From Mesostigma viride (taxonomy: Eukaryota; Streptophyta; Mesostigmatophyceae; Mesostigmatales; Mesostigmataceae), in contig RPFO01000104.1 of NCBI GenBank assembly GCA_009746045.1, positions 5,323,395 to 5,387,394 of the forward strand: DNA of 64,000 nucleotides, given 5' to 3'. A model generated the notes under the pieces. The model made no database searches, was not told the DNA's origin, and worked only from the letters and a program-made list of their open reading frames with translations. Position numbers and translations under genes: made by a program. This document shows positions 3,661 through 58,800 of this stretch, one piece after another (positions within the stretch are counted from its first letter, which is position 1; each line of letters begins with the position of its first letter).

Positions 3661-3869
3661 CCCTTGTGTTCCTGCTCCGCATTGGCCTGCTCTTTGTCTG
3701 CTCGCTCGTCATCCCCCCCAGACAAGGGCGAGTGACCCGCGCTGTGCCATTTCCGTGCCAAACATGTCTGATAACCTGACCTCGTAGTCTGATCTGTAAC
3801 CTGACCTGATAATCACATCACAAATGCATGTTTTCGCCTGCTCCCTTGCCCACCCCTCACCCCCCCCAG

Positions 3870-4785: not shown

Positions 4786-5013
4786 AGAGAAAGAGTAGGG
4801 TTGAGAAGCATGTCAGGATGGGGTGTACGTATGTCAGGCTGCAGTCTTGGGTGAGCCAATCCCTTGTGCCAAATGGGGGGCAGCCAACCACTCAAAGCCT
4901 TCATAGTGACCAAGCCATGGATTCCCTGTTCTTCCCACTTGCCCACATGCCCCACCCCCCTCCCCCCATGCGCGCGCGTGCCACCCGACTCGCACAACCT
5001 CACCACCGTGCAG

Positions 5014-38288: not shown

Positions 38289-38601
38289 GATTGTCTCGGC
38301 AAGGTTAAAATCTGGTCACAACCGAGTCTCGGCAAGGTGAAAATCTGGAAACAACCGAGAAAACCGGAGACGCTCAATCCGTAATGGTAAAGATTAATAT
38401 TAATATGCGACGATGGTTGAGAACAGCGAATACGAGATAGAGACGATCGTCTAAATACTGGAGTTCTTGAATTTCGATACAGGGAAGCCCGTCAAGGATA
38501 TGCACGACTGGCATAAAGTGCCGACGTCGGATTCAGGGAGTCAATTTGCCCGATAAATGGGACCAGTTTCAGCAATTTAGTTGGCCACCCCTCCGATACC
38601 A

Positions 38602-39124
38602 TGTCAAAATGTAGGACAGGTGGCAGGCTTAAAGATCGAATAATGCTTTACTGATTATATATATTGACTTTGAGTCGGCGTTCAAACGGGTAGCCATGAC
38701 AATTGCAGGGGCAACATTAAGTGGAAAAACACACTGTCACAGTATCCGTCGATCTGGAAATAATCTACGGTATAAGTTAGAGTGCATCCAGCCGCCACAC
38801 ACAAGTGGGTGGCTTACATCAACACTAAAATGACGCGTCGGGTCACTAGTATGCAAGTACAAGGACATTGCGCCTCCAGGGCAGCACTTAGTGAACATAG
38901 GGTCGGCGCGAAGCGCAGATCCAGGCAAATTTTGTCAGGCGGCTACAGTACCACTAGGTACGGTACGGATGTCAGCTAACACCGCTGGAAATCGGATGTC
39001 AGCTAACACCACTGGAAATATATTTAGTCAAATGTAGCAGAAAGTAGTCATATAAGTTCCGGTATACCCGAAACTAGCACACTCAATAAAAAGACTGTCA
39101 GGCATATTGGGGCATATCCTGACA
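38602..39124 (-). repeat. Gag-only element, right LTR (5' LTR in element sense)
   Basis: 523 bp, TGTCA...TGACA. The primer-binding site lies immediately to its left at 38588-38601 (minus-strand reading). Confidence 0.92.
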
Positions 39125-40832
39125 CAGGGACTGCTTCCTCTGTGTACCAGGAGTTGGGTGCCCGAATCCACAACATGTTTGGGCATGCCACTTCTCTGTC
39201 AAACAACTTTGCCTTCCGTATGGGCAGGGCACCCCTTCTCAAGGCGTGCCAGCAAGCTGCCTCACGGTGTAAGTGCCAGTTGTCCTCCAACAAGCCCAGG
39301 AAATCACATGCCAAAGCTCTACCTCAGAGCATTGGTGATCTGCAGTGTGATATCCAACACATCAGGGGCATGCAACTGTTGGTGTGCGTGGACAGGTACA
39401 CAAAATACAAGGTGCTGGAGCATTTACCTTCTATGAAGAACAGGTACTTGCTGGCTGCCCTGCAGAATGTACGAGCCAAGTTTCCTACCACAAGGATCCA
39501 GGTGGACATGCAGTTTCAGCATCTCAAGGGTGATCCCACCCTTCCTGAGTTGCTGGTTACACCTAGGGAGGCTCATGGGCAGCAGGGTGCTATAGAGAGG
39601 GCAATCCAGGAGGTCAAGAAATTGATTATCTCTGAAGACTGGGTACCCTTGTCTGCACCTGCACTTGTCAGGAGTGCATGGTTGAGGAACGTGGAGCAGC
39701 AGCTGAACAGCAGGGTTAATTTCTACTATGATGGAGTTGCTGTCAGCCCAATGGGTCTGTATCATGGCCTGTGCCCACCACATGTGCTGGAGGGCTGGAA
39801 ACATGCTGCACATGTCACCTTTGCCAAGCTGAGGGAGAAGGACCGGGGTTGGAAGATGCTGGAGCCACAAGTGGGTCAGAAGGTCCTAGCTTGGAAGGAA
39901 CCTAGCCTTTATGGCAAACGTGGTAGCTGGAGTCCTGGGGTGGTTACCCAGGTTGATGAAGCTAGCCACGCATGCTTGGTCAGCATGGAGGACGAACCAA
40001 AGCATGTGCACCGGCTGAGTTGGTCATATGTCAAGCCTAACCTGATGAATGAGGGCAGTCAGGCACAAGGCTCACAGGATCTGCAGGATTTTCAGGTCCC
40101 AAGTGACATCACTGATGCAACGACCACATCTGTTGCAGGGGAATCTGTCAGCCTTGGCCAGGTTGCAGAGGTACCTGTTGAACAGGCTGCAAGGTCAACA
40201 GCTGGGGAGTCAACTGTCAAGCCCAAGGCACTAACCAAGCCCAGGGGGACAAGTTTGGCTGGATTGATTGGGGCTCTGCAAAGGGCCAAGAAGCAGCCCA
40301 AGGTAGCCAAGCTCAGGTAGTTATTCTAGGGCTTCAGGCCTAGACTATCAGTACACGTGGCGTTGTCCCCGTCTCCCAAGTGGGATACGGACATGGACGG
40401 TAGTGTAGTACACTGGACATATCTCTACTAGGATTTAGATCCGCACGTGCCATGATGGGCACGTGGGTGCTAGATATTAGCACTGAGATATGTAGTGCAC
40501 ACGCACGTGGGTATTCACGTGGTAGGGTTTATGAGCTGTGATGCAGACCACAAGGTGGCTGCAGTGCTAGTCCTGTACGGAGGTCCTAGGGGAGGTCCAG
40601 GATCGTCCACGTAGTGCTGTTAGGCAGTCGTTGCCTGCGGGCATCGTATCAGTCCTAGCTGGAGTAGATCTAGCTGGACGGAGCCAGCACCTCATTGGTT
40701 AGCACTAGTACAGGATAGCTAGGTTACCCTAACCTACGTGCCCATGCAATCCAGCTTGGCAAGCTTGCATGGGTTGATATTATGCCAGCCATTGCATAAT
40801 CCAACACACGTTCGCATCCATTGCACGAGTGC

Positions 40833-41449
40833 AGTTGTGAGGGTAGGAATGCCACGAATTCCGCCATGGTTCTTGCAGGAAGTTGCCTTTATTACTAATC
40901 AGGAAACACAGACGTAAGTCACGTCACTTCCAAGACTGCACGCAGCACAGACGACAGGGTCGCAGTGCCAAGAGAACGTGCACGCAAGAACTAGCGTCCC
41001 GGTGTGACCAAGTCACTCATATAGCTTACTAGGGACGCGTCCAAGTATTCAGCTGCACTGTCACAGCTGAACTGTCAATCAATTGATTACACAGACTCTG
41101 GCACGCCTTTGGCGCGCAGATCTATCAATTGTCCATACGGCTAGTCCTGTGGACCTATCCGTACACTAGTCAGCATCAATTGTCTCATAGGTCCTGGCGC
41201 GCTACAGTGCGCCTACCTATCAATTGACCATCAAGTCCTGTACAAGTCCTGTCAACGTCCTGCGGACTATCAAAGTGACACTTGTACATCCTGTGTCCGT
41301 ACGCGCCCACAGTGGCGCGCCGGGTACTGTCGGCACAGCCTAGGAAACGTCATAACTTTTACGTTCCTTAACCAAATGAGGCGTTCAAGGTGCCGTTGGA
41401 AAGAGCGTAACAATCTCTATCCATCTAACGTAAATCCTTTACGTTAACT
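40833..41449 (-). repeat. Copia-A copy 3, 3' LTR
   Basis: 617 bp. Differs from the other LTR of this copy by GGGTAGG/GGGTAAG and ATTACTAAT/ATTAATAAT. Confidence 0.92.
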
Positions 41450-42398
41450 CCAATCCCTTCTTTTCTTTAGGGATCACATCCCCTGCCAGGGACCCTTGAA
41501 GTAGCTTGAAATGTCCTTCACTCCAGCTTGAAGCTTGAACAGATGTCTTTAATGGCCATTGCCATTCCCCCAGCCCTTTCTTTTAAGGAACTGGAAAAGA
41601 AACAGATCTGCCACAGGGAAAACCATTTCATGAGAAATGGAGAAAACCTATGGAAGTGGCATTACAGAGTACCACCAGATATTAGAAGCACACAAAATTA
41701 AATACATACAGGTTAATTCTATGAGGTCTTCTCCAGGAATTAATCCCATCACCTCGGTAGAGCCTCCAGTACAATGACCTTCTGGCGGTGAGTTACATTA
41801 ATCCCAGATACTAATCCCATAAAACCCAGTACATATTCAATATAAGTACAATAAATCCATGACAATTAAAATACCACTTGACAAAGTAAGGCGTATTACA
41901 ATAGTTTGCCTGTCATTCTCTCAACAGGGGTCTATTGGCGCCCGTCTTACGGCGCCCGTCTACTTGCCAGATGGTAAACTGCCACAGCAAACAAATGACA
42001 AAATGAAACACATAGGCAACAATTAAATCCTGCCCTGGGGAACTAGGGAAGTCTGAACAGGCAAACACCTGAACAGGCCAGCTTGTAGAAACATAATACC
42101 AGGGAATCGAACCCCGCCCTATAAACCCCAGAATAAAGGTTCCCAGACCATTGTGAGAGGTATGTACAAATATACATTTCTTTTAAAATAGAATACATGG
42201 TCTGTAATGGACCTGTCAACCTTGTGTAGTCAACAGCATGAACCCCAGCCAAAACCTGGCTGTATCCTGATTAAAATCAGAGTGAGTGTACCATGGTCCA
42301 TGAGCCTTAGTACAGACTAAAATACAGGTATTATGCCAGTCACAATGCTGACACTACCACACAATCTGCTCTCCAATGCCCTATAACCATGCACCAGC
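41450..42398 (-). other. Copia-A copy 3, 3' non-coding region
   Basis: Conserved 950-bp stretch between pol and the 3' LTR. Read on the minus strand it has the B-box-like GGTTCGATTCC (42103-42113), paired ACGGGCGCC motifs, and the purine run before the LTR. Confidence 0.75.
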
Positions 42399-45300
42399 TT
42401 AGACAGCTTGCTGAGATGGGTCCATCAGAGACTGAAGAACCTTGTATTGCACTGCTGCCTTCTGCACTAGCTTGGTCAAAGCATCAGCAGGATTGTCAAC
42501 CCCAGGGATATGCTCAATATTGGCCAAGGAGGACAACTCCTTAAGAAGGAGATAATCCAAGTCCCTACTTCTGGCCATCTGCCTGTGCACAAACTGCACC
42601 ATCCCCATGGAGTCTGTTTTTAGAAGAGTGGTAACCTGAAGTGGCCAAGGAGTGTTAGAAGTCATCTGATGAAGCAACTCCTTCAGATAAAGGCTTGTGT
42701 GAATGCCTTCACAAATAGCCCTGCATTCTGCCACATCACTGCTGACAGCCACCCGTTTGTGCAGGCGACTAAACCAGCTCACCAAACTCCCCAGGCCTTC
42801 CTGTCTGAGCACAAAGAGCCCTGCAGCCCTGCCCCTGACCTTGGAGACCTGCCTGCTGTCCATTGAGCTATCCACATACAGCTCCATGCAAATGGGTTGT
42901 GATAAATCCACTGCAGACAACAGAATGCCAGATGAAGCCCTGACCTGATCAGCCACCTTGGCAGACCCTAGCTCCACCAGCATGTCATCAGGCAACCTGG
43001 CTATGACCATAAGGTCTGGCCTGGAAATGCCTGCCACCCAAGCAACCATGCCCCTCACCATGGGACACAGTGCCTGTGTGATGGTTGGAGGAAGCTTGCT
43101 AATGAGGGTCTCTTGATAGTCATTGCCCCCCACCAGCAGCATACGCCACTCCCCTCCCTTCTTCACCAGTGTGGCCTCCATGCCCACAAACAGCAGAGGC
43201 TCATTCTCCACCTGCCATTGCTCCCTACCCAGAGGAAACTTGGACTTAATGATGGAGATCAGCTCCTTAAGCCACGACGTGGGAGCTATCAGATGTAGGT
43301 CATCCCCGTGCAGCGAAGCATACACTGGCAGGCCTTCCCATTGCCCCAGAAACAGACAGGGGTCTACAGGAGAGACCTTCAAGTTGCAATGCTCCTTCAG
43401 GAAACGGTTGAGAGTCTCCCTCCAGATTATTGGACTTGACCTCAGGCCCTCCAGGCCCTTGAGGATTTTAAGGAACTCCGTGTGGATGTCCCTTTTCCAT
43501 ACAGCAGGCACCCTAACATAGAAAGGCGTCTTGCCCTCCCACTTTTCCTGTGCCACATCTGCATCACCCTCCAGAAATGCCCTCTTGAAGTCTATCACCA
43601 CTGAGCCATAGTCCAAGCCCTTGTTGAGAAGGCCTAGAAAGACACACAGCAGCAGCCTCCAAGTATCATGCAGCATGCCAGGGGTATACAACTCCTCAGC
43701 AGTGCACTCACCAGTACCCTTGAACTCATTCAGCACTGGCCTGACATGTGGTACCTTGACCCCGTCCACCTCCTTCATCTTGATGACAAACTTGAGCTTG
43801 AGTAGACGTCGTGCAGGAGGCAGGTCATTGACAGGTTCCACGCATTTCTTGGAGATCCAGTCCTCCCCAGATTTAATCAGACCCAGTGTGACCTGGGGAC
43901 ACATAATGGGAGAGGACATGAGCTTCACCAGGCCTTGGTAGTTGATAGGGCTGTGTCCAGCAAGTGAGTGAGGACCAATGCCCAAACTGCTTGGATGACT
44001 AGCAGCTGGCAGTATGAGGTCATCAACCAAGGGCTCCTGCCCCTGGCACACTTGCACACGCTTAACCGTCCTGGTTACTGCACGTGATAGGTGAGTGGTC
44101 CTGAAATTAATCAGTGGGACCTGACCAGCCCCTTCCTTAGTCAGGAGAGAGGACGTGATCACTACCCCATCCTGGCATAGGAAATTCTGCCCCAGAAGAG
44201 CAGGTCCTTGATAGCCCTCCAAGACACAAAAAGCAGTGTCCTGTCCAAGGATAGGAATGAATACCTCACCCAGTACCTTCACGTGTACCCCGCCACTGAA
44301 GTCAGACACAAACTGATAGCTGGGTTCAGACATGCTGTACCCTGCTGCAGCCCTGGTCCCAATAATGGAGACCTGAGAATTAGTGTCTACCTCTAAGGCA
44401 GTGTCCAGCCCCAGATTGCCATGCCACCTGAGCTTGGCTACCTTGGGCTGCTTCTTGGCCCTTTGTAGAGCCCCAATCAATCCAGCCAAACTTGTCCCCC
44501 TGGGCTTGGTTAGTGCCTTGGGCTTGACAGTTGACTCCCCAGCTGTTGACCTTGCAGCCTGTTCAACAAGTACCTCTGCAACCTGGCCAGGGCTGACAGA
44601 TTCCCCTGCAACAGATGTGGTCGTTGCGTCAGTGATGTCACCTGGGACCTGAAAATCCTGCAGATCCTGTGAGCCTTGTGCCTGACTGCCCTCATTCATC
44701 AGGTTAGGCTTGACATATGACCAACTCAGCCGGTGTACATGCTTTGGTTCGTCCTCCATGCTGACCAAGCATGCGTGGCTAGCTTCATCAACCTGGGTAA
44801 CCACCCCAGGACTCCAGCTACCACGTTTGCCATAAAGGCTAGGTTCCTTCCAAGCTAGGACCTTCTGACCCACTTGTGGCTCCAGCATCTTCCAACCCCG
44901 GTCCTTCTCCCTCAGCTTGGCAAAGGTGACATGTGCAGCATGTTTCCAGCCCTCCAGCACATGTGGTGGGCACAGGCCATGATATAGACCCATTGGGCTG
45001 ACAGCAACTCCATCATAGTAGAAGTTAACCCTGCTGTTCAGCTGCTGCTCCACGTTCCTCAGCCATGCACTCCTGACAAGTGCAGGTGCAGACAAGGGTA
45101 CCCAGTCTTCAGAGATGATCAATTTCTTGACCTCCTGGATTGCCCTCTCGATAGCACCCTGCTGCCCATGAGCCTCCCTAGGTGTAACCAGCAACTCAGG
45201 AAGGGTAGGATCACCCTTGAGATGCTGAAACTGCATGTCCACCTGGATCCTTGTGGTAGGAAACTTGGCTCTTACATTCTGCAGGGCAGCCAGCAAGTAC

Positions 45301-45884
45301 CTGTTCTTCATAGAAGGTAAATGCTCCAGCACCTTGTATTTCGTGTACCTGTCCACGCACACCAACAGTTGCATGCCCCTGATGTGTTGGATATCACACT
45401 GCAGATCACCAATGCTCTGAGGTAGAGCTTTGGCATGTGATTTCCTGGGCTTGTTGGAGGACAACTGGCACTTACACCGTGAGGCAGCTTGCTGACACGC
45501 CTTAAGAAGGGGTGCCCTGCCCATACGGAAGGCAAAGTTGTTTGACAGAGAAGTGGCATGCCCAAACATGTTGTGGATTCGGGCACCCAACTCCTGGTAC
45601 ACAGAGGAAGCAGTCCCTGGCACAGTCAGGACTGTGCTGTCAGGTTGTCCAGCATCACCATGCTGACTTCCATCCTGTTCTGACTCAGAGCCTGAGTCAC
45701 CCTGCTCATGCCCAACACCTGGACCGCCAGCAGGGACCACATGCATACCACCAGAGGCCTTCACACCCCTCTGTGGTTGTACATTGGTTTCTCTCAAAAT
45801 GAGAGGTCCACCCTCGTGCCCAGCACGAGGATGCATAGGGTCAGACATACTTACAGCTGCATCAGCTGTCAAGGACGTCTTCAT
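42399..45884 (-). CDS. pol: Copia-A Pol polyprotein: integrase, retropepsin-like, RT, RNase H
   Basis: 1161 codons from the first Met, but the frame is continuous with gag: only one UGA at 46026-46028 separates them and no other stop intervenes, so Pol is probably made by readthrough. Integrase: zinc region with H104 and H109 and a Cys cluster at 130-139; catalytic D164, D216, E246 (D-x29-E, shorter than the usual 35). Retropepsin-like segment at about 495-570: EVDTNSQVSIIG, then VFIPILG and ALLGQNFL. RT: DFKRAFLEGDAD near 763 and LHGDD near 860 in place of the usual YVDD. RNase H: YVDSSMDS, SWFSRLHKRVAVSSDVAECR, and HIPGVDNPADALTK near 1127. The protease position after integrase is abnormal for copia, where the order is PR-INT-RT-RH. 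Confidence 0.85.
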   Translation of the reverse strand: MKTSLTADAAVSMSDPMHPRAGHEGGPLILRETNVQPQRGVKASGGMHVVPAGGPGVGHEQGDSGSESEQDGSQHGDAGQPDSTVLTVPGTASSVYQELGARIHNMFGHATSLSNNFAFRMGRAPLLKACQQAASRCKCQLSSNKPRKSHAKALPQSIGDLQCDIQHIRGMQLLVCVDRYTKYKVLEHLPSMKNRYLLAALQNVRAKFPTTRIQVDMQFQHLKGDPTLPELLVTPREAHGQQGAIERAIQEVKKLIISEDWVPLSAPALVRSAWLRNVEQQLNSRVNFYYDGVAVSPMGLYHGLCPPHVLEGWKHAAHVTFAKLREKDRGWKMLEPQVGQKVLAWKEPSLYGKRGSWSPGVVTQVDEASHACLVSMEDEPKHVHRLSWSYVKPNLMNEGSQAQGSQDLQDFQVPGDITDATTTSVAGESVSPGQVAEVLVEQAARSTAGESTVKPKALTKPRGTSLAGLIGALQRAKKQPKVAKLRWHGNLGLDTALEVDTNSQVSIIGTRAAAGYSMSEPSYQFVSDFSGGVHVKVLGEVFIPILGQDTAFCVLEGYQGPALLGQNFLCQDGVVITSSLLTKEGAGQVPLINFRTTHLSRAVTRTVKRVQVCQGQEPLVDDLILPAASHPSSLGIGPHSLAGHSPINYQGLVKLMSSPIMCPQVTLGLIKSGEDWISKKCVEPVNDLPPARRLLKLKFVIKMKEVDGVKVPHVRPVLNEFKGTGECTAEELYTPGMLHDTWRLLLCVFLGLLNKGLDYGSVVIDFKRAFLEGDADVAQEKWEGKTPFYVRVPAVWKRDIHTEFLKILKGLEGLRSSPIIWRETLNRFLKEHCNLKVSPVDPCLFLGQWEGLPVYASLHGDDLHLIAPTSWLKELISIIKSKFPLGREQWQVENEPLLFVGMEATLVKKGGEWRMLLVGGNDYQETLISKLPPTITQALCPMVRGMVAWVAGISRPDLMVIARLPDDMLVELGSAKVADQVRASSGILLSAVDLSQPICMELYVDSSMDSRQVSKVRGRAAGLFVLRQEGLGSLVSWFSRLHKRVAVSSDVAECRAICEGIHTSLYLKELLHQMTSNTPWPLQVTTLLKTDSMGMVQFVHRQMARSRDLDYLLLKELSSLANIEHIPGVDNPADALTKLVQKAAVQYKVLQSLMDPSQQAV

Positions 45885-46025
45885 AGGAACCTGTACCTCT
45901 CCAGGTGACCTGGGGCCACACTGAACCTGGAGATCACCCTCTTGTTGCCCAGATATAAAATCTGCATTGGAGCACCTGGCCTCCCCCTTGGGTGAATTAA
46001 GGTGTGTAGGGGTTGCCTCAGACAG

Positions 46026-47140
46026 TCACTGCTCCTTGTTGTCTTCTTGCTGACTGCCCTTTGAAGGCTGGCCTGCCTGGGACTTGTTGTTGTTCTTCTT
46101 GTTGTTGTTGTTATTCTTGTTGCTGCCCTGGCCCTGGGACTTCTTGAAGCTGGGACACTCCTTCTTGATGTGCCCCCACCCCTTGCACAGGTAGCATTGT
46201 ATCTTGGACTTGCCCTGGCCACTGCCCCCATTGTCAGACGCGTTGCCCTGCTTGGGCTGACCACCCACCCGCCTGAACACCGACTTGGAGTGTGACCTCC
46301 TGTCAGAATCAGGTGAATGATCTCCCTTGCGCTTGTGATGGTTGCCCCTACGCCCTCCTTGGCTTCGGTCAGCCTCAGACGTCTTGGAGCCACCCTGGGT
46401 ACGCCCGCCTGCCTGGGTAGCCTTCACTGCTGGCACTCCACCCTCAAACAGCTCCTCTGCCTCGAGAGCTTGTTTAATGATGACCTTGTAGGCCTTCAGG
46501 GTAGAGTGTGGGGCACACATGACTTTTAAGGAGCCACGTGTCGCCTTATCCAGCCCAGAAACCTTGAGCCAGTTGGTTAGGGCTATGTTATCAGCGACAT
46601 TAAAGCCGTGAGCCCTGCCCTCCTCAACCATCTTACAATAGTTGAGAAAGTTCTGGATCAGGTCCCCCTTGACCTCCCACCCTTGTACTTGTCCTGCCAA
46701 TGGATGCCGACCTTCTTTCGTTGGTCCTCCAGCAGCTCCTTCAGCTCAGCCACGTACAGTGCCCAGGCCTTATTGGCCTTTTTGCACTCCCTGGTTAGGT
46801 CCTTAATCTGGTCAGTACACTTGCCAAAAGTGCTACTGCCTATCCAGATTTGATAGTAATTTGTACCACCGTACAAGCTAGGGAACCCTTCCAATCCCTC
46901 CACAAACTCTTCAGCCTGCTTAGGCTTGGAGTCTGAGGTTACAGGCTGCAACTGATTGACAATTAAAAGACCCTGTGTGGTAAGATCAAAGCCATGAATA
47001 GCTTGTGCATTATTATTATTGTGAGGAAGGTTGGTAATCTCTCCGGTAAGCCCCACGTCATCTACGTGAGCGGTTCCACTACCAGCACCCCCATTATTAT
47101 TCCCACTGGCTGGACCCTTGCTACGGCGTCCCTCAGCCAT
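46026..47140 (-). pseudogene. gag: Copia-A gag, copy 3 (one single-base frameshift)
   Basis: Starts MAEGRRSKGPASGN and ends KEQ before UGA-CUG. The capsid-like region contains EEFVEGLEGFPSLYGG and QIKDLTRECKKANKAW. At about 46686 one base is missing (GACAAGTACAAGGG against GACAAGTATCAAGGG in copies 1 and 2), which breaks the frame. The rest continues GWEVKGDLIQNFLNYCKMVE to the CCHC knuckle CYLCKGWGHIKKEC and an Asn/Lys-rich tail. Apart from this base the gene is intact, and unlike copies 1 and 2 it reads through FNVADNIALTNWLK. Confidence 0.85.
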
Positions 47141-47309
47141 CCTGCACTACCAGCTATTCAAAGAACACCTTAACAAAGCAGCAGAAAATATGTACAAAAT
47201 TTTTGTGTCGCCACTGCCGCCTGCGCCGGTGTCGCTGCCGCCCCCGCGAATTGCCGCCGAAATTCGACAAAAAAATGTCGACAAGTACTGCAGAAGAAAA
47301 TTAGGCCGA

Positions 47310-48014
47310 CTAGTAGTCAAGGCCCCTGAAGTCGCAGTACGTGTATACGAACTCACGATCCTCCATATCCAGCTCCGGACCTGCACCGGTATGAATTAAA
47401 ACCGGCGTGCTCCCCGCCGCGTAAGTTGCGACGCGCCGACGCGCGACGAGGCGCAGAGGATGTGTAAAGATCGTCAATAATTCCCACCCCGCGGGAATCC
47501 ACTCTCGCACAGAGGCGAGAAATGCCACCAGGTTAATTAAAACCTGGCGCTCACGACTGCGTACGCCGCGAGTGAGCAGCGATAACAGCGCGAGATCCTG
47601 AAACAAATTTGTTGACACCGCCGGCGCGCCCCCCGTGCGAAGCGATGCCCAGTTTTGCAGGTTTCTCTGGTAACCGGTGAGTGAAGAGAGGACGTTGTCC
47701 AACTCCTCAATGGCAGTCGTGACTTCGGTCACCGACCGCAAACCTCCCCGCACCTGGACCGTAAATGTCGATAAAATGTTGCGATCTGGTCCAACATGCG
47801 GAGCCGGCACCAGTGCTGGCAAATCGGGGTCCTCGGGGTTATCCCCGAGCAATGCGTGAGCTGCACGCTGCTGACGATGAAGCTCGTCGAGCGAAACTGT
47901 AACTTCGTCGAGCAATTGTTGCCACGACGGCACAGTTGGTCTTGACGAAGAACCAGCCGGCGGAGCGGCTATTTCCTCATCGTCCGGAATCCGAAATTCT
48001 TCCGAATTTGGCAT
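47310..48014 (-). CDS. Copia-A ORF1, unknown protein (234 aa), copy 3
   Basis: Intact, starting MPNSEEFRIPDDEE 25 bp into the interior and ending CDFRGLDY. It is homologous to the 261-residue ORF1 of copy 2 (shared SSLTGYQRNL, NLFQDLA, LLINLVAF-like helices, Arg cluster, acidic C-terminus). It has Pro/acidic N-terminal and helical central regions, a hydrophobic/Arg segment at about 140-195, and no known catalytic motif. It is separated from gag by about 170 bp and lies in its own frame, so it needs internal initiation, splicing or reinitiation for both to be made. Confidence 0.75.
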   Translation of the reverse strand: MPNSEEFRIPDDEEIAAPPAGSSSRPTVPSWQQLLDEVTVSLDELHRQQRAAHALLGDNPEDPDLPALVPAPHVGPDRNILSTFTVQVRGGLRSVTEVTTAIEELDNVLSSLTGYQRNLQNWASLRTGGAPAVSTNLFQDLALLSLLTRGVRSRERQVLINLVAFLASVREWIPAGWELLTIFTHPLRLVARRRVATYAAGSTPVLIHTGAGPELDMEDREFVYTYCDFRGLDY

Positions 48015-48038
48015 CTTTTTGACAGAGCGTGTAATACG

Positions 48039-48655
48039 AGTTGTGAGGGTAAGAATGCCACGAATTCCGCCATGGTTCTTGCAGGAAGTTGCCTTTATTA
48101 ATAATCAGGAAACACAGACGTAAGTCACGTCACTTCCAAGACTGCACGCAGCACAGACGACAGGGTCGCAGTGCCAAGAGAACGTGCACGCAAGAACTAG
48201 CGTCCCGGTGTGACCAAGTCACTCATATAGCTTACTAGGGACGCGTCCAAGTATTCAGCTGCACTGTCACAGCTGAACTGTCAATCAATTGATTACACAG
48301 ACTCTGGCACGCCTTTGGCGCGCAGATCTATCAATTGTCCATACGGCTAGTCCTGTGGACCTATCCGTACACTAGTCAGCATCAATTGTCTCATAGGTCC
48401 TGGCGCGCTACAGTGCGCCTACCTATCAATTGACCATCAAGTCCTGTACAAGTCCTGTCAACGTCCTGCGGACTATCAAAGTGACACTTGTACATCCTGT
48501 GTCCGTACGCGCCCACAGTGGCGCGCCGGGTACTGTCGGCACAGCCTAGGAAACGTCATAACTTTTACGTTCCTTAACCAAATGAGGCGTTCAAGGTGCC
48601 GTTGGAAAGAGCGTAACAATCTCTATCCATCTAACGTAAATCCTTTACGTTAACT
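48039..48655 (-). repeat. Copia-A copy 3, 5' LTR
   Basis: 617 bp. The interior starts with CGTATTAC immediately after the LTR, as in the other copies. Confidence 0.92.
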
Positions 48656-48698
48656 AGTGCCATAACTTGCATTTATAGGAACTCTCTCATTTTTAAAG

Positions 48699-51600
48699 AT
48701 GTCGAACGTTTCCAATACCGATTACTCTTCGGAGTCAAGCCTGTCCCCATCGTCCGAAGATTTGGACTACCGGGCGGCAGTGCGGGGCCGGCAGGGTCGG
48801 GACGATCACGCTGGCAGCGATGCCGGCAGTGGTCGCTCGTCTTCGGACGAGGACCAGCGGTTCCTGGATCAGTTGGCGGCGCGGCCGCCGCTATACAATG
48901 TATGGCGTCCCAACGCACCACCGGCGGAAGGGCAGCCCACGGCCCCCGAGCTGGTCACGGGGCCGGGGAGGGTGGTGCCGGTATTGGGGGACATACCGTC
49001 AGATGGCTACGACGAGGACGAGGACCTCGTGGATCTCGAGTTGCCGGAGGACAAGGAGAAACGCGAGGAGCTGCTCCGCCGAGAGGCAGAGCGCATTCGG
49101 CAGGAGGCCCAGCTCCGCAGAGAGCTGGAGCAACAGCGTGAGCTGGAGGCTCAGCGCGAGGCTCAGCTGCGGGCAGAGACTGAGATGGACAGGACAGCCC
49201 GGGTGCTCGCGGAGCGGCAGCAGGAGCGGGATCGCGTGGCCAGGGCAGGTCTGCGCGCGGGGCCGACAGGTGCGCGAGAGGCGCCCCCATACGTTCTCCG
49301 CAAGAAGAACGAGCTTTACACCTTTGCGCACAGGCGCACAGCGCGCTCCTTTAGGCGAATGGCTGGAGATGTGCTGCAGGAGACCGACTCGTCGGTGGAG
49401 ATGCAGCCAGGAGCGCGGGGAGAGGAGCTGGTTTTGATGGACCCGGCCATGGTGGAGGCAGAGCGTCTGGCCAAGATAGAGTACGCCAGGCATTGCCAGC
49501 GGAAGGCCAAGAGGGCAATGGTGCGGTCCATGGCGGAGAACAGTTTGGCTAGGGAGCGCGCAGCCAGGGAGGCGCAGCATCGGGAGATGAAGCGACTTCG
49601 TGCGAAGGCGCACGACGCCGCGGAGAAGACCCGGCGTCACCAGGCGCGGCTGGACGCAGCCTTGAAGAGGTCGGAGGCGACACTGGCAACGATGGTGGGC
49701 CCGGCGAGGCGTGAGCAGGAGGCCCGGCTGGCGAGGAAGAGCCGGCGTAATGCGCGTGCCCTAGACAGGCGCATGCGCAAGGAGGAGCGGGCTCTGCGCA
49801 GGTATCAGGAGGCGGCCAGGACCTGGGCTCTGCAGGGAGAATTCGGAGACGCAATCCGGTTTGAGCGTGGTCTGGCGCCACATGAGCCGCTGCCTGAGGA
49901 GGCTGTATTGGACTTCATGCGTACCCCACAGCCAGCAAGGGCCCAGCGAGGAACGGCCTTGTTAAACGCGCGTGAGCGTGTTCGCGCTGGCGCAGACACA
50001 CCCTACCCCCCACCCCCCACACCCACACACACCATGCAGACCGACACGGACCTGGAGCTGGACCGCATCGCTGCACTACTCCACCAGGAGCTGGATGCAG
50101 CGGAGGCCAACCCGACCAAGCGGGCGCGGGCAGCAGAGGCAGTAGAGCACCTGCTGAAGGCCGCCAAGCGGGTCCGCCAAGGAAAGTGGCAGGAGGGGTG
50201 TGGACCATCGTCTACGCCCCAGCGGTCGCATCCAGAGGAGGATGGTGACGAGGGGAAGGACGGGGGAGCACCAGGGGGAGGGGCACCAGCAAGCACCGGG
50301 GGTATGGCGGGCGGCAGCAACGCTGGAGCGGCAACCCAGCAGCAGCAGCAGCCACAGCATCAACAGCAGCAGCAGCAGCAGCAGCAGCGGCAGCATCAGC
50401 AACAGCAACCGCAGCAGCAGCAGCAGCAGCAGCAGCAACCTCATCCACAAGCGACTGTCGCTGTACCACAGCGACCCAGGTTTGATGCATCCCGCAGGGA
50501 AGATAGGATTACCTTCCCAGGTCTAGCTGAGGGATATGTGCAGGAGGACGCACTTGAGTTTCTTTTCAAGATAGAACATTCTTGGTCCCATGATAACATC
50601 CGTGATTGGTTTCCTGCTCTCAGGGTGTCTAACACAATCCACCAATCTGCACCTAGCATCAAACAAATGGTTCAGATGTATGAGAGGAGGGCCAGCACAC
50701 CTGGGGCAGAGGAGGTGCAAATCTTCACAGAATTCATAGCAGACCTAAAAGGGCTGTTGACCAAGGGGGAACACCTGCAGGCTCTCAAGGGGTTCACCTG
50801 GTTGGCCTCGTACAAAGTCAACAAGTCTGACTACGTACGTGATAACAAACAGTTTGTCCTGTACATAGACAGGGACGAGGAGTTGAAGAAACTCAACTCT
50901 AAGTACCTGATCCATCAGTGGCTCACCAAAGCTGAGCTGGACAAGAACACCAATGCAGTTCTGCTGGCTGGCCTTAAAGACAAGTGGGATGATTTTAGGG
51001 GGGCCATGTTGTTCATTCAGCAGAGCCTAGAACCCTTCTCAACTGTCAAGGAACCCAAGGTTAACAAGGTCCAAGGGGGGGGTGGTCAGGACGGTGCAGG
51101 TCCTAGCAGGAAGAAGCTCATCAAGGAGGTGGTAGCTCAGGTCAAGGCGGTGTTCAAGGGTCCCCAGCAAGGTAAGAAGGCAGGGGGATCATCCAAGCAG
51201 CAGGGGAAATCCGACAAGGGGGGAAAGGGGAACCCAGGCAGTAAGGCTGGGTCCTCCCAGGGGCCTAGTCAGAAAGGTAAGCCTCATGACTCCACCCTGT
51301 ATTGCACCAGGTGCTCATGCAAGGGGCATGAGAGGGATGATTGCTGGAAGGGCAAACCCGAACTTGGATCTGATGTGGATGTATGCCCAGGTTGCTGGGA
51401 GCCCCGCCACCCGTTACCTGCAGGGGGACGCTGCAACAAGCCCAGGAAGGGAGCCTCAACGGGGCGCCCCAACAAACAAGCCAGCACTCAGGATGACTGT
51501 AAGTCTCCTGTACCCTGGTTTCTCAATGGCCGTGTACCTTCCATTTGCTCTGTGTTGCCTGACAGTGAGGAAGTGGACTGGGACCTGGCTTATGACATGA

Positions 51601-54600
51601 CGCTAGCACAGGTGGCCCAGGATCCCACTATAGCCTCCTTAGACGCAGCAGCAGATAAGGTTATATCCTATGCCAGGTTAGCCCAACAGCTACACAAGGC
51701 AATGGGGCATGAGGCAGTGGCAGAAAGGCTGGCTAATAAAATTGATGGCCGTGACCTGGAACAGATGTGCAGGCATGTCAGGAAGCACTGTGAAGCGTGC
51801 CAACTGCATGCACCTAAACCCAAGAGATGGCATGTGGCCACCCCACCACTGGCTAGAGGAAAGCTAGTAGGGGATGTGATACACCTGGTGAAGGACACGG
51901 TGTATTACTTGGTCATAAAAGATGCCTGGTCTAGGTTTGTGGTGATAGAACCTTTGCCAGGCATGGCCAATGAACAACTGCACAGAGCCCTGCTGATTGC
52001 ACTAGCACGGTATCATCCTCAGGAAAAATTAATGCTGGATCAGCAGTTCACGTGGATACAAGATTATCCTGATCTGCCCAAGATAGACATTGCTGGGGCT
52101 CAAGATCATGAACGCCAGGGGATGATTGAACGTACCATGCGTGCTATCAGGGACCTCATAAAGAAAAATGAGTCCAGGACAGCAGAGTCTGGGAGCTATG
52201 CTGATAGGACAGCGTGGGCAGCTGAAGTGTGCAGAACTCTGAACACCAAGCCCCTCATGTCTTCTCCTTTTGGTGAAATCACACCAATTGGCCTGCAATC
52301 AGGTAGCTACTCTCAGGAGGTACTAGACCACTACAACACGCAGAGGCAACACTTGGCCAAGTTGCTGGCAAAAAAGGATAAGAGTAATGCCAGGCCTGTG
52401 TTTGAAGTGGGGGATCAGGTACTCTACTATAGGGAAGGGGAAGGGAACAAAGCCCACTCTGGTAGATGGCATGGTCCAGCTGAAATCATCAGGTTCTCAG
52501 AAACAGGGGACACGGTGACTATTCAGCATCACAGAGAGCGAATGGTTGGCAAGCATAGACTGAAGCTTTATTACCCTCCTTTGGCAGACGTGTCAGGGGT
52601 AGAATTCTTGGACATGGATTCAGAGCCTCAGTCTGGTGGGTTGGTCTCACCCAGTGAATTGGCTAGGGACATAGCTGATGCAAGCAACACAACCATAGAC
52701 GCTCCTGTGTTCCTCAGTGGTGCAGCCCCACCACAGCCCACTGGTCCAACTGGGCAGGAGGAACGTGCACTGGATGAGCAGCAGGTCGCTCCTCCCTCAT
52801 CTCAGGAACAGCCACACGAAGCAGCAGATCCTGTTGTCCCCAGGAATAAATTTGCTGAGGCTCTAAAAGCTCTACATAGAGCACACACTGCCAAGGCACA
52901 AATGGCAGCAGGTGCAGCACAAGTCAATGCTGTGGGTGAATCTAACCAGGATCCCAGTATTCTGGCAGTAGACACACAGGCACAGGTGAGCATCATCAGT
53001 GCACAAGCTGTATCTGGCCTAAGTCTGCAACGCTCGCCCTGGGCTAGAGTGTCAGATTTTTCAGGCAAAACAAAAATGGCAGTCAAAGGCCAAGTGCTAA
53101 TTCCCATTCTGGGTGTGCCCACTCCCTTCCAGGTAGTAGAGGGCTACAAGGGGAATGCACTGCTGGGGGAACCATTTGTCTCATACCCTGGAGTTGTCAT
53201 CTCAGCTGGGAGGTTGAGCGTGACTGGGGTGGGGCAGGTCACCCTGGACCATTTCAAAATTCCTTTAACACAGATCAGTGATGGCCTGGAAGCAGCCATC
53301 AATGCTGTCAACATAAAATACCTCCCAGGTCAGGAACCCTGTGTTGATTCCCTCATTCATTCTCAGAAGCTACACCCCTCTGCGTTTGGGCTTGGTAGAT
53401 GGGACATTGCGTCCATGTCTCCCTTGTCCTATGATGATGTGGTCAAAGACTGTCAAACGCAGATTGGTTTTCTGAAATGGATGGAAGCCTTTAACAGGGC
53501 TAGAGAGGAATGGGTTTGTCCTGATCCACGTAGTAAGTCCCAGGTACCACCTGTAACACCGATTGAGGCACTGCCACAAGGGGCCAGAAAGCTCAGACTG
53601 AAGTTTGTCTGCAAGCATAAACCCCAGGCAGATGGGACACCTCCCATTTTTCATGCCAGACCTTGTGTCACGGAGTTCAGGGGCTCCACTGAGCTAACAG
53701 AGGCTGAACTGTATACCCCTGGTATTCAGCAGACGTCTCTTAAGGTCCTGTTGGCCACTTTCCTTCACCATCTGAATGCTGGTAAGGACTACGTGTGTAA
53801 AGCCACTGACATTAAGCGTGCCTTCCTTAAAGGCAACCCTGACATAGCCCAAAAGGTGTGGAGGGGTCAAGTCTATGTGGTCAACACTCCCAAAGTCTGG
53901 TCTGGGGACATCAAGGAACCTCATCTAAGGCCTAACTTGGGGGTAGAAGGGCTTCAGTCAGCACCTAAAATTTTTAGGCTGTCTGCCCAAGAGGTCTTCC
54001 TGAAGCTGGGGGCCCAGTATGATGATATTGACCCTTGTTTCTTCACCATCCCTCATCCTGCTGGTTTGATGATGTTTGTGTGGCATGGGGATGATCAGCT
54101 CATTACTGGTCCCAGGGCAGCTGTGGAGGATTTCATTGCTCAAGTGTCTGCTAGCTTTGAATTAGGCAAGCAGCTGGAGCTGGGGAAAGATCCTGTCAAG
54201 TTCTGTGGCATCATTCTGAACCTGTTTAAGGAGCAGAAGGAGTGGGTGTGTTCTCTCAAAGCCTCCCCTGAGTATGTCATGTCTTGCAAAGATGTTCTTC
54301 CCTCTGACATCACTCCTGATCTCTGTCCCACTATTAGGGGTAAGCTAGGTTGGCTGTGTGCCACTTGTGCTCCTCACCTGGCGGTGGTCAGCAGAGTGGA
54401 TGATGATGTCCTCATGGAGGTAGGGTCTAGGGCTATTAAACAGGTGTTGCATGATGGCCCTCCCCTTATTCTTCATGCTCTGGATCTGTTCCAACCCATC
54501 CACATCACATGCATGATGGACAGTTCCATGGAGTCACGGGTAGTCACTAAGGTACAAGCCAGAGAGGCAGGTCTCTTTATGTTGTCTAACCCCACTGGCA

Positions 54601-54998
54601 AGCAATCTTTGGTTTCCTGGTTCAGCAGACTCCACAAGCGCAAGGCAGTCAGCAGCAATGTAGCAGAATGCCGTGCTGTGGTATCAGCTGTGTTGCATGC
54701 CAGGTATTTGAACCATCTGCTGGTGTGGTTGCAGCATCAGGCTGGTAGTTATGCTGGTGTCAAATCCCATCTGCTGACTGACAGTCAATCCCTTCTCTCT
54801 TTCCTGGACAACCCCTTGGCTGTGCACACCGATTTGGACTGGATTGTCCTCAAGCAGGAGTGTACCTATCTGGAGTCCAAGACTCACATCCGAGACCCTG
54901 ACAATGCAGCAGATGCACTCACAAAAGTGCCACAGGCTGCAGGGCCTCAGTACAGAGTCCTATACACGCTGATGAACCCATATAACGGCAGAGGGTGA
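48699..54998 (+). CDS. gag-pol: Copia-B Gag-Pol polyprotein (2099 aa, single ORF)
   Basis: Starts at the first ATG after the LTR and leader. Residues 1-560: acidic start, then a long charged coiled coil (ELEQQRELEAQREAQLR and similar). 547-584: Gln-rich tract. About 590-800: Gag capsid-like helices. 869-882: CCHC knuckle CTRCSCKGHERDDC, then a second Cys/His cluster CPGCWEPRH. 990-1046: integrase zinc region (HKAMGH, CEAC). Integrase core: GDVIHLV near 1060, D near 1113 and E near 1143 (x29). About 1420-1500: retropepsin-like VDTQAQVSIIS, VLIPILG, ALLGEPF. RT: DIKRAFLKGNPD near 1704 and WHGDD near 1796. RNase H: 1935-2075, ending DNAADALTK. Only about 110 residues separate knuckle and integrase and they hold no DTG/DSG, so the usual protease site is empty. 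Homologous to Copia-A Pol but without a stop between Gag and Pol. Confidence 0.88.
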   Translation: MSNVSNTDYSSESSLSPSSEDLDYRAAVRGRQGRDDHAGSDAGSGRSSSDEDQRFLDQLAARPPLYNVWRPNAPPAEGQPTAPELVTGPGRVVPVLGDIPSDGYDEDEDLVDLELPEDKEKREELLRREAERIRQEAQLRRELEQQRELEAQREAQLRAETEMDRTARVLAERQQERDRVARAGLRAGPTGAREAPPYVLRKKNELYTFAHRRTARSFRRMAGDVLQETDSSVEMQPGARGEELVLMDPAMVEAERLAKIEYARHCQRKAKRAMVRSMAENSLARERAAREAQHREMKRLRAKAHDAAEKTRRHQARLDAALKRSEATLATMVGPARREQEARLARKSRRNARALDRRMRKEERALRRYQEAARTWALQGEFGDAIRFERGLAPHEPLPEEAVLDFMRTPQPARAQRGTALLNARERVRAGADTPYPPPPTPTHTMQTDTDLELDRIAALLHQELDAAEANPTKRARAAEAVEHLLKAAKRVRQGKWQEGCGPSSTPQRSHPEEDGDEGKDGGAPGGGAPASTGGMAGGSNAGAATQQQQQPQHQQQQQQQQQRQHQQQQPQQQQQQQQQPHPQATVAVPQRPRFDASRREDRITFPGLAEGYVQEDALEFLFKIEHSWSHDNIRDWFPALRVSNTIHQSAPSIKQMVQMYERRASTPGAEEVQIFTEFIADLKGLLTKGEHLQALKGFTWLASYKVNKSDYVRDNKQFVLYIDRDEELKKLNSKYLIHQWLTKAELDKNTNAVLLAGLKDKWDDFRGAMLFIQQSLEPFSTVKEPKVNKVQGGGGQDGAGPSRKKLIKEVVAQVKAVFKGPQQGKKAGGSSKQQGKSDKGGKGNPGSKAGSSQGPSQKGKPHDSTLYCTRCSCKGHERDDCWKGKPELGSDVDVCPGCWEPRHPLPAGGRCNKPRKGASTGRPNKQASTQDDCKSPVPWFLNGRVPSICSVLPDSEEVDWDLAYDMTLAQVAQDPTIASLDAAADKVISYARLAQQLHKAMGHEAVAERLANKIDGRDLEQMCRHVRKHCEACQLHAPKPKRWHVATPPLARGKLVGDVIHLVKDTVYYLVIKDAWSRFVVIEPLPGMANEQLHRALLIALARYHPQEKLMLDQQFTWIQDYPDLPKIDIAGAQDHERQGMIERTMRAIRDLIKKNESRTAESGSYADRTAWAAEVCRTLNTKPLMSSPFGEITPIGLQSGSYSQEVLDHYNTQRQHLAKLLAKKDKSNARPVFEVGDQVLYYREGEGNKAHSGRWHGPAEIIRFSETGDTVTIQHHRERMVGKHRLKLYYPPLADVSGVEFLDMDSEPQSGGLVSPSELARDIADASNTTIDAPVFLSGAAPPQPTGPTGQEERALDEQQVAPPSSQEQPHEAADPVVPRNKFAEALKALHRAHTAKAQMAAGAAQVNAVGESNQDPSILAVDTQAQVSIISAQAVSGLSLQRSPWARVSDFSGKTKMAVKGQVLIPILGVPTPFQVVEGYKGNALLGEPFVSYPGVVISAGRLSVTGVGQVTLDHFKIPLTQISDGLEAAINAVNIKYLPGQEPCVDSLIHSQKLHPSAFGLGRWDIASMSPLSYDDVVKDCQTQIGFLKWMEAFNRAREEWVCPDPRSKSQVPPVTPIEALPQGARKLRLKFVCKHKPQADGTPPIFHARPCVTEFRGSTELTEAELYTPGIQQTSLKVLLATFLHHLNAGKDYVCKATDIKRAFLKGNPDIAQKVWRGQVYVVNTPKVWSGDIKEPHLRPNLGVEGLQSAPKIFRLSAQEVFLKLGAQYDDIDPCFFTIPHPAGLMMFVWHGDDQLITGPRAAVEDFIAQVSASFELGKQLELGKDPVKFCGIILNLFKEQKEWVCSLKASPEYVMSCKDVLPSDITPDLCPTIRGKLGWLCATCAPHLAVVSRVDDDVLMEVGSRAIKQVLHDGPPLILHALDLFQPIHITCMMDSSMESRVVTKVQAREAGLFMLSNPTGKQSLVSWFSRLHKRKAVSSNVAECRAVVSAVLHARYLNHLLVWLQHQAGSYAGVKSHLLTDSQSLLSFLDNPLAVHTDLDWIVLKQECTYLESKTHIRDPDNAADALTKVPQAAGPQYRVLYTLMNPYNGRG

Positions 54999-55373
54999 AG
55001 TGCCTCAGCCTAGGGATCTTAGCACCAGATAGGAGGGTGGTCATGGGGTGGCAGGGTCTGAAGTGTCCCACCCGTAAGACTCTCTTTGCGTCATTAAAGA
55101 TTGAGGTCAGAAGGGTCCTCCTTTATTGATGGCTTGTTCTTTGTCAATAAAACGTGTGGTCATATTTTTCTGACAATGGTTTTCCTAACACAGGCACCCA
55201 ACCAGTGGGGATGTTGTATCCAACACGGAGGAGCTATGGGCGCTTTTATAAATGCATCTCTTTCAGTGTCCTGGTTGTCCCTGTGGGGAACCTTGCTTAT
55301 CAGTAGTGGTTGGCATATGAGTGGGTTGTGGGAAGAGTCTTCCCCTCACTCCCCAAAGAAAAGTAATAATGGG

Positions 55374-55894
55374 AGTTATTCTAGGGCTTCAGGCCTAGAC
55401 TATCAGTACACGTGGCGTTGTCCCCGTCTCCCAAGTGGGATACGGACATGGACGGTAGTGTAGTACACTGGACATATCTCTACTAGGATTTAGATCCGCA
55501 CGTGCCATGATGGGCACGTGGGTGCTAGATATTAGCACTGAGATATGTAGTGCACACGCACGTGGGTATTCACGTGGTAGGGTTTATGAGCTGTGATGCA
55601 GACCACAAGGTGGCTGCAGTGCTAGTCCTGTACGGAGGTCCTAGGGGAGGTCCAGGATCGTCCACGTAGTGCTGTTAGGCAGTCGTTGCCTGCGGGCATC
55701 GTATCAGTCCTAGCTGGAGTAGATCTAGCTGGACGGAGCCAGCACCTCATTGGTTAGCACTAGTACAGGATAGCTAGGTTACCCTAACCTACGTGCCCAT
55801 GCAATCCAGCTTGGCAAGCTTGCATGGGTTGATATTATGCCAGCCATTGCATAATCCAACACACGTTCGCATCCATTGCACGAGTGCCATAACT
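55374..55894 (+). repeat. Copia-B 3' LTR
   Basis: 521 bp, AGTTATTC...CATAACT, preceded by AAAGAAAAGTAATAATGGG (polypurine tract). It matches the reconstituted 5' LTR without visible differences. Confidence 0.92.
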
Positions 55895-58800
55895 CAGGTG
55901 GCATGGCAATCTGGGGCTGGACACTGCCTTAGAGGTAGACACTAATTCTCAGGTTTCCATCATTGGGACCAGAGCTGCAGCAGGGTACAGCATGACTGAA
56001 CCCAGCTATCAGTTTGTGTCTGACTTCAGTGGCGGGGTACACGTGAAGGTACTCAGTGGGTGAGGTATCTATTCCTATCCTTGGACAGGACACTGCATTT
56101 TGTGTCTTGGAGGGCTATCAGGGACCTGCTCTTCTGGGGCAGAATTTCCTATGCCAGGATGGGGTAGTGATCACGTCCTCTCTCCTGACTAAGGAAGGGG
56201 CTGGTCAGGTCCCACTGATTAATTTCAGGACCACTCACCTATCACGTGCAGTAACCAGGACGGTTAAGCGTGTGCAAGTGTGACAGGGGCAGGAGCCCTT
56301 GGTTGATGACCTCATACTGCCAGCTGCTAGTCATCCAAGCAGTTTGGGCATTGGTCCTCACTCACTTGCTGGACACAGCCCTATCAACTACCAAGGCCTG
56401 GTGAAGCTCATGTCCTCTCCCATTATGTGTCCCCAGGTCACACTGGGTCTGATTAAATCTGGGGAGGACTGGATCTCCAAGAAATGCGTGGAACCTGTCA
56501 ATGACCTGCCTCCTGCACGACGTCTACTCAAGCTCAAGTTTGTCATCAAGATGAAGGAGGTGCATGGACGGGGTCAAGGTACCACACGTCAGGCCAGTGC
56601 TGAATGAGTTCAAGGGTACTGGTGAGTGCACTGCTGAGGAGTTGTATACCCCTGGCATGCTGCATGACACTTGGAGGCTGCTGCTGTGTGTATTTCTAGG
56701 CCTTCTCAACAAGGGCTTGGACTATGGCTCAGTGGTGGTAGACTTCAAGAGGGCATTTCTGGAGGGGGATGCAGATGTGGCACAGGAAAAGTGGGAGGGC
56801 AAGACGCCTTTCTATGTCAGGGTGCCTGCTGTATGGAAAAGGGATATTCACACTGAGTTCCTTAAAATCCACAAGGGCCTGGAGGGCCTGAGGTCAAGTC
56901 CAATAATCTGGAGGGAGACTCTCAACCGTTTCCTGAAGGAGCATTGCAACTTGAAGGTCTCTCCTGTAGACCCCTGTCTGTTTCTGGGGCAATGGGAAGG
57001 CCTACCAGTGTATGCTTCGCTGCACGGGGATGACCTACATCTGATAGCTCCCACGTCGTGGCTTAAGGAGCTGATCTCCATCATTAAGTCCAAGTTTCCT
57101 CTGGGTAGGGAGCAATGGCAGGTGGAGAATGAGCCTCTCCTGTTTGTGGGCATGGAGGCCACACTGGTGAAGAAGGGGGGGGAGTGGCGTATGCTGCTGG
57201 TGGGGGGCAATGATTATCAAGAGACCCTCATTAGCATGCTTCCTCCAGTCATCACACAGGCACTGTGTCCCATGGTGAGGGGCATGGTTGCTTGGGTGGC
57301 AGGCATTTCCAGGCCAGACCTTATGGTCATAGCCAGGTTGCCTGATGACATGCTGATGGAGCTAGGGTCTGCCAAAGTGGCTGATCAGGTCAGGGCTTCA
57401 TGATTCTGGCATTCTGTTGTCTGCAGTGGATTTATCACAACCCATTTGCATGGAGCTGTATGTGGATAGCTCAATGGACAGCAGGCAGGTCTCCAAGGTC
57501 AGGGGCAGGGCTGCAGGGCTCTTTAAGTGCTCAGGCATGCAGGAAGGCCTGGGGAGTTTGGTGAGCTGGTTCAGTCGCCTGCACAAACGGGTGGCTGTCA
57601 GCAGTGATGTGGCAGAATGCAGGGCTATTTGTGAAGGCATTCACACCAGCCTTTATCTGAAGGAGTTGCTTCATCAGATGACTTCTAACACTCCTTGGCC
57701 ACTTCAGGTTACCACTCTTCTCAAAACAGACTCCATGGGGATGGTGCAGTTTGTGCACAGGCAGATGGCCAGAAGTAGGGACTTGGATTATCTCCTTCTT
57801 AAGGAATTGTCCTCCTTGGCTAATATTGAGCATATCCCTGGGGTTGACAATCCTGCTGATGCTTTGACCAAGCTAGTGCAGAAGGCAGCAGTGCAATACA
57901 AGGTTCTTCAGTCTCTGATGGACCCATCTCAGCAAGCTGTCTAAGCTGGTGCATGGTTATAGGGCATTGGAAACAGCAGATTGTGTGGTAGTGTCAGCAT
58001 TGTGACTGGCATAATACCTGTATTTTAGTCTGTACTAAGGCTCATGGACCATGGTACACTCACTCTGATCATAATCAGGATACAGCCAGGTTTTGGCTGG
58101 GGTTCATGCTGTTGACTACACAAGGTTGACAGGTCCATTACAGACCATGTATTCTATTTTAAAAGACATGTATATTTGTACATACCTCTCACAATGGTCT
58201 GGGAACCTTTATTCTGGGGTTTATAGGGCGGGGTTCGATTCCCTGGTATTATGTTTCTACAAGCTGGCCTGCTCAGGTGTTTTACCTGTTCAGACTTCCC
58301 TAGTTCCCCAGGGCAGGATTTAATTGTTGCCTATGTGTTTCATTTTGTCATTTGTTTGCTGTGGCAATTTATCATCTGACAAGTAGACGGGCGCCATAAG
58401 ACGGGCGCCAATACTAACCTGTTGAGAGTATGACGGGGAAACTATTGTAATACGTCTTACTCTGTCAAGTGGTAATTTAATTGTCATGGTTTATTATGCT
58501 TACATTGAATATGTACTGGGTTTTATGGGATTAGTATCTGGGATTAATGTAACTCACCGCCAGAAGGTCATTGTACTGGAGGCTCTACCGAGGTGATGGG
58601 ATTAATTCCTGGAGAAGACCTCATAGAATTAACCTGTATGTATTTAATTTTGTATGTTTCTAATATCTGGTGGTACTCTGTAATGCCACTTCCATAGGTT
58701 TTTATCCATTTCTCATGGAATGGTTTTCCCTGTGGCAGATCTGTTTCTTTTCCAGTTCCTTAAAAGAAAGGGCTGGGGGAATGGCATTGGCCATTAAAGA

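Follow-up and report, generated by a model that had tools for sequence, protein, structure and literature searches.

Can the protease of a copia-like long terminal repeat (LTR) retrotransposon lie between its integrase and its reverse transcriptase? The question is raised by a 64,000-nucleotide stretch of the Mesostigma viride genome, hereafter the window (assembly GCA_009746045.1, contig RPFO01000104.1, positions 5,323,395 to 5,387,394 of the forward strand), which holds two such elements, Copia-A and Copia-B. The original prediction, made from the sequence alone, placed a retropepsin-like segment after integrase (INT) and before reverse transcriptase (RT) in both families. The analysis confirmed this arrangement: Copia-A and Copia-B carry a retropepsin-like domain (PR) between integrase and a copia-type RT-RNase H (RT-RH). 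The rest of the prediction, namely the retropepsin character, the lack of a protease at its usual site and the recurrence in diverged families, was supported. The best explanation, to which we give a probability of roughly 0.78, is that these elements belong to an undescribed lineage of LTR retrotransposons in which the order is Gag-INT-PR-RT-RH and Pol represents either a mosaic or a deep branch sister to copia. The features concerned are listed here in window coordinates.

48699..54998, plus strand: Copia-B Gag-Pol, one open reading frame (ORF) of 2099 aa
51303..51434, plus strand: Copia-B zinc knuckles CTRCSCKGHERDDC and CPGCW...GGRC at the end of Gag (motif found by eye; the ORF has no Pfam zinc-knuckle match)
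51690..52130, plus strand: Copia-B integrase, with HHCC from residue 999 and D1059, D1114 and E1144 (DD29E), assigned from spacing and from Pfam rve at E 5.6e-5, below cut-off
52461..52560, plus strand: Copia-B integrase C-terminal GPY/F-like (SH3-like) module, GRWHGPAEII...GKHRLKLYY, read from the sequence
52956..53270, plus strand: Copia-B retropepsin-like domain, modelled over 105 aa, with D1425-T1426-Q1427 and LLG at 1488-1490
53568..54170, plus strand: Copia-B reverse transcriptase, copia type, with HGDD at 54084 (Pfam RVT_2 at E 2.6e-7, just under cut-off; family-profile hhalign)
54513..54926, plus strand: Copia-B RNase H, copia type (assigned from the family-profile hhalign with copia RT-RH and from the sequence)
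42399..45884, minus strand: Copia-A Pol, 1161 aa, INT-PR-RT-RH
44091..44408, minus strand: Copia-A retropepsin-like domain, with D500-T501-N502 and LLG

From the N-terminus, Pol of both elements comprises an HHCC and DDE integrase and a GPY/F-like module (presumably so at 52461..52560, where the label was given by eye). A variable linker leads to the VDT(Q/N) domain, which includes ALLG and the closing strands; RT with its HGDD and then RNase H come last. The signature reads VDTQAQVSII at residues 1424-1433 of Copia-B (Asp1425), with ALLG at 1487-1490, and VDTNSQVSII at residues 499-508 of Copia-A pol (Asp500), with ALLG at 562-565. Both domains lie 3' of the last DDE residue (E1144 in Copia-B, E246 in Copia-A) and 5' of HGDD (1796 and 859, respectively).

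The usual site of the protease shows no protease-like motif. Some 115 residues separate the end of the first Copia-B zinc knuckle from HHCC and some 86 the end of the second, and a Pfam scan of the stretch from zinc knuckle to integrase returned one unrelated match (E 0.068). A D[ST][GA] scan of the three forward frames of Copia-B found no such string in the coding frame and one DTGN in another. The Copia-A pol frame has three DTA and a DSGS, the latter within low-complexity sequence; its other forward frames add one DTA, one DSGR and, in a Gly/Ser-rich part of the gag region, one DTGA. None of these strings in the three forward frames of either element has the hydrophobic context of a protease. 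In a locus of a third family, D, the last zinc knuckle and HHCC are about 84 residues apart (counted by hand). A protease hidden in the usual place was rejected on the motif scans, Pfam and this short interval. The protease N-terminal to integrase that would have spoken against the original prediction was looked for in Copia-A, Copia-B and the family-D locus and was not found, and no other protease candidate turned up in what was read of these three.

The order is common to diverged families and is not a one-off. The Copia-A and Copia-B pols are 34% identical over 1129 aa, a span that includes the VDT(Q/N) domain. Relatives were sought in the M. viride genome (439.9 Mb in 2243 contigs) and among 5.8 billion proteins (three queries, with about 8000 candidates scored for each). 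INT-PR-RT was read in Copia-A, Copia-B, Copia-C, D and the protein P0003, and from within integrase onward in D2, a subfamily about 79% identical to family D. For B2, a decayed relative of Copia-B at 68%, the order follows from one collinear match carrying internal stops; P0007 shows PR-RT, and the sequence seen starts downstream of any integrase. Canonical copia elements of the same genome (L039-L042) have PR-INT-RT in 4/4.

Copy numbers are lower bounds, because the scored loci are only a small part of the candidates. Copia-A has at least 40 intact pol copies: all 40 scored loci (from 10071 candidates) are 100% identical to its pol and free of stops. Among 30 fetched loci, 28 are identical in DNA and all share one PR sequence. 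Copia-A is recently amplified, with the VDTN domain as its only protease candidate. Copia-C has at least 38 intact pol copies (38/38 scored loci without stops) and is 63-64% identical to P0003, and family D is represented by 11 rows at 100% (rounded) over at least 1150 residues. These many near-identical copies rule out a one-off rearrangement or an assembly error, the latter also by the intact copy numbers of Copia-A and Copia-C alone. The protein search gave six relatives. P0003 (ENA, a 6.2-kb contig) is 51% identical to Copia-A, P0005 is close to Copia-C, and P0004, P0006, P0007 and P0008 are all listed under Mesvir1 (M. viride); P0006, a family-D protein, matches ten genome loci along its full length at 100% (rounded), and six of these have the top score. 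A search of viral contigs found no relative, and a phage search led nowhere. One genomic locus, L034, is 76% identical to Copia-B overall while its protease looks identical by eye, hinting at mosaic copies.

Several lines of evidence support the VDT(Q/N) segment as a retropepsin-like domain, as judged from alignment and modelling. In an alignment of seven sequences with few gaps, two of which (B and B2) are close to each other, the invariant positions are the Asp, a Ser located six residues past it, the Thr and the LG of the ILG motif; LLG or ILG is present in 7/7. Pfam finds the protease family PF13975 in 5/7 (best E 0.0016), PF12382 in 2/7 (best 0.0015) and PF13650 in 2/7 (0.073). Searched against PDB, the seven-row profile matches retroviral-type proteases in six of eight cases (E 0.12-0.16), namely two tethered dimers, which we take to be HIV-1, together with four chains of retroviral-like aspartic protease 1; apisimin (0.19) and an aminotransferase (1) make up the remainder. 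Reversed sequences gave Pfam matches in 0/7, against 5/7 for the real ones, and three PDB matches, none to a protease; by this control the Pfam resemblance is not due to chance. An hhalign comparison with gypsy PR of the same genome aligns 85 columns in register, placing DTQ on DSG and LLG on LLG (E 0.0017), and none of 200 column shuffles reached that score. AlphaFold2, given the seven-row alignment, modelled the Copia-B domain at a mean predicted local distance difference test (pLDDT) of 80.9 and a predicted template modelling score (pTM) of 0.74. In the model, strands flank the DTQ turn, two long strands then form a hairpin, ALLG lies in a further strand, and a short helix precedes the closing strands, the order of elements found in retropepsins.

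Other observations weigh against the best explanation. In 7/7 the active-site triplet ends in Asn or Gln, never in the Gly of the usual DTG/DSG. Every Pfam protease match lies below its curated cut-off, and the family-D member matches none of these families. The tethered-dimer matches in PDB pass only when two repeats are summed, and a five-row profile ranked apisimin first (0.13), with seven tethered proteases next (0.51-1.6). For the match to gypsy PR, hhalign gives a probability of just 15.7%. The remaining four AlphaFold2 models scored 74.8, 69.9, 49.1 and 45.0, so that two of the five fall below 50, and a run with five rows and long flanks reached a pLDDT of only 41.3. The PR comparison between A and C, saturated in synonymous substitutions (dS), gives no ratio of nonsynonymous to synonymous rates (dN/dS), and of the Copia-B matches scored (22 of 20270 candidates), the window copy alone is full and intact.

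Does the domain still cut? The substitution ratios show the retropepsin-like domain in the INT-RT gap to be under strong purifying selection. Between D and D2 its dN/dS is 0.051, below that of each of the four other segments (INT 0.132, linker 0.375, PR-RT spacer 0.087, RT-RH 0.083), with dS in PR at 1.64 and so near saturation; between B and the decayed copy B2 it is 0.107, beside 0.247 for the INT-PR linker and 0.090 for the part that follows. Protease activity is inferred. A retropepsin that has lost catalysis through the change from DTG to DTQ or DTN, kept as a structural or dimerising module while canonical copia or gypsy proteases or a host enzyme process the polyprotein in trans, would account for the Asn or Gln in all seven sequences, and the genome is rich in canonical copia and gypsy elements (at least 150 scored rows each). 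It sits poorly with the invariance of Asp, Thr and the LG of ILG and with the low PR ratio of D/D2. The protease of the canonical copia elements L039-L042 has DSA in 3/4 and DTG in the fourth; therefore Gly is not fixed there either. Loss of catalysis is accordingly judged unlikely, at about one chance in five.

The affinities of the separate Pol domains differ. An RT-RH profile of six families aligns with four canonical copia elements over 448 columns (hhalign E 4.9e-17), marking RT-RH as copia-type. Pfam RVT_2 appears in 5/6 pols scanned (A, B, P0003, P0006 and P0007, not Copia-C), none above cut-off, and RVT_1 has no match in them. The same profile gave no alignment with a gypsy RT profile of two sequences, which says little, because the control of canonical copia against gypsy failed too. 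Ty1/copia integrases have DD35E as their norm. In the integrases of the new families the second Asp and the Glu are 29 residues apart in 5/5 (A, B, L031, P0003, P0006), against 35 in 7/7 local copia and gypsy elements. The integrase profile of five sequences finds no in-register match in copia (four) or gypsy (three) integrase of the same genome, while the copia and gypsy profiles match each other (probability 91%, E 1e-6); with so few sequences per profile, a failed comparison is no proof of separate origin. The canonical set L039-L042 was chosen from 150 scored RVT_2 rows, L043 being omitted as a repeat of L040; P0007, which has no integrase part, was left out of the integrase work, and the RT-RH pieces P0005 and P0008 out of the profiles. 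By these comparisons only RT-RH is detectably copia-type; protease and integrase are not.

An ordinary copia protease that moved 3' of integrase and diverged beyond recognition is judged as unlikely as loss of catalysis. It would fit the copia-type RT-RH, and a single relocation is simpler than a gain and a loss. The motif itself argues otherwise: copia proteases usually have ILS instead of ILG, according to a passage of PMC2642776, and LLS is found in all four local canonical elements, whereas the new domain has LLG or ILG. Furthermore, column shuffles reach the score of the match to local canonical copia PR in 20/200 cases and that of the match to gypsy PR in none, on small profiles of four and two sequences, respectively. 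On sequence grounds the protease is closer to gypsy and retroviral proteases than to those of copia. That the segment is some other small beta-barrel resembling a retropepsin by chance, as the sub-cut-off Pfam matches and an apisimin match of similar E-value (0.13, first, with five rows; 0.19 with seven) might suggest, is very improbable, given that motif, ILG, model and controls agree.

Since only RT-RH is demonstrably copia-type and it is combined with a protease closer to those of gypsy and retroviruses and a strongly diverged DD29E integrase, the most fitting reading of Pol is a mosaic or a deep copia sister branch. Two points go beyond the original prediction: Asn or Gln replaces the catalytic Gly in 7/7, and neither protease nor integrase is detectably copia-type. 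The element therefore looks less like copia with a moved protease than like a mosaic or a lineage of very deep origin. With Ty1/copia the new elements share RT-RH, homologous end to end over those 448 columns, and an integrase 5' of RT. They differ in having the protease after integrase rather than before it, DD29E rather than DD35E (4/4 local elements), an ILG-type DT[NQ] protease rather than an ILS one, and LTRs with AGTTA...AACT rather than the usual TG...CA. With Ty3/gypsy they share the most similar protease and an integrase ending in a GPY/F-like module (by eye); the gypsy order PR-RT-RH-INT, as given in a passage of PMC6317226, is not seen here, and RT gives RVT_2, not RVT_1. Gmr1, a gypsy lineage that PMC2774666 describes, in the portion available, as having a copia-like integrase position, has by that description only its integrase so placed, unlike the new elements. 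With retropepsins (clan AA, family A2) the domain appears to share Asp-Thr, the flap position, ILG and, in the model, the sequence of strands and helix; it differs in having Asn or Gln where their active-site motif ends in Gly.

In the proposed undescribed lineage, Gag-Pol would be made as a single chain in Copia-B and through UGA read-through in Copia-A and Copia-C. The retropepsin-like domain would dimerise within the particle, and its conserved Asp-Thr would cut Gag, integrase and RT-RH apart, so that the protease would act from inside Pol and not from the Gag-Pol joint. The stop codon in question lies as follows.

46026..46028, minus strand: in-frame UGA (UGA CUG) between Copia-A gag and pol, in 30/30 loci examined

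Gag and pol of Copia-A share a frame and are separated by this UGA followed by CUG, and Copia-C is split by UGA CUU in 2/2 loci (L031, 1462-1464). Stop-codon read-through at UGA-C is possible in both families. In the family-D locus L058, two zinc knuckles lie in a frame (821-1429) that overlaps pol (1390-4971) by 40 nt; a standard slippery heptamer was sought in this overlap and none was found, so a frameshift heptamer was rejected there. A programmed frameshift within Copia-A gag was also rejected, the window copy having an indel relative to the other copies seen there.

How novel are these elements? Pol domain order defines the superfamilies of LTR retroelements, and the protease comes first in Pol in both plant superfamilies, as stated in the part of PMC6317226 consulted; the survey in that paper, as far as that part goes, examined elements of unexpected order and removed all as likely mispredictions. 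No report of an INT-PR-RT order was found in the literature searched, most subscription journals lying outside that search. Two M. viride genome papers, PMC6947507 among them, treat LTR elements in bulk in the portions available. A passage in PMC8742986 places integrase upstream of protease in Pseudoviridae; this is taken as a slip and not a prior report, because it disagrees with both PMC6317226 and the four canonical elements. As far as the searches of this analysis go, the lineage is undescribed. The elements are a new LTR retrotransposon variant, unlike those compared here, and possibly a new superfamily. A fuller version, held tentatively and at slightly less than even odds, is a superfamily-level lineage, to date found only in Mesostigma and the proteins P0003 and P0005, which would combine copia RT-RH with a DD29E integrase and with a retropepsin, not of copia type, working with Asp-Thr-Asn/Gln between INT and RT. 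Annotation pipelines can miss INT-PR-RT elements. A high-copy lineage in which the order is broken, the active-site motif altered and the integrase triad shortened suggests greater modularity of Pol than taxonomy assumes, and the Asn/Gln lineage offers a natural test of the need for Gly in DTG.

The two elements are nested in the window, and their boundaries are as follows.

40319..40832, plus strand: main part of the Copia-B 5' LTR (self-BLAST 99.8% to 55371-55887; ends read from the sequence)
55374..55894, plus strand: Copia-B 3' LTR, 521 bp, AGTTATT...CATAACT
40833..48655, minus strand: Copia-A element, with LTRs at 40833-41449 and 48039-48655 (617 bp, 99.7%), AGTTAAC...CACAACT

Copia-B lies within an older Copia-A copy, and the younger Copia-A (40833-48655) lies within the 5' LTR of Copia-B. 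That LTR is split, its last 7 bases being displaced to 48661-48667, because Copia-A inserted there. The target duplications are CAGGT for Copia-B (40314-40318 and 55895-55899) and AGTGC for Copia-A (40828-40832 and 48656-48660). The LTRs of both elements start with AGTTA and end with AACT, not TG...CA, and both target duplications are of 5 bp. A further element, of 2.8 kb, lies at 36292-39125; its 524-bp LTRs are 100% identical, its minus strand has gag-like frames, and it is probably a non-autonomous derivative of canonical copia that arose recently.

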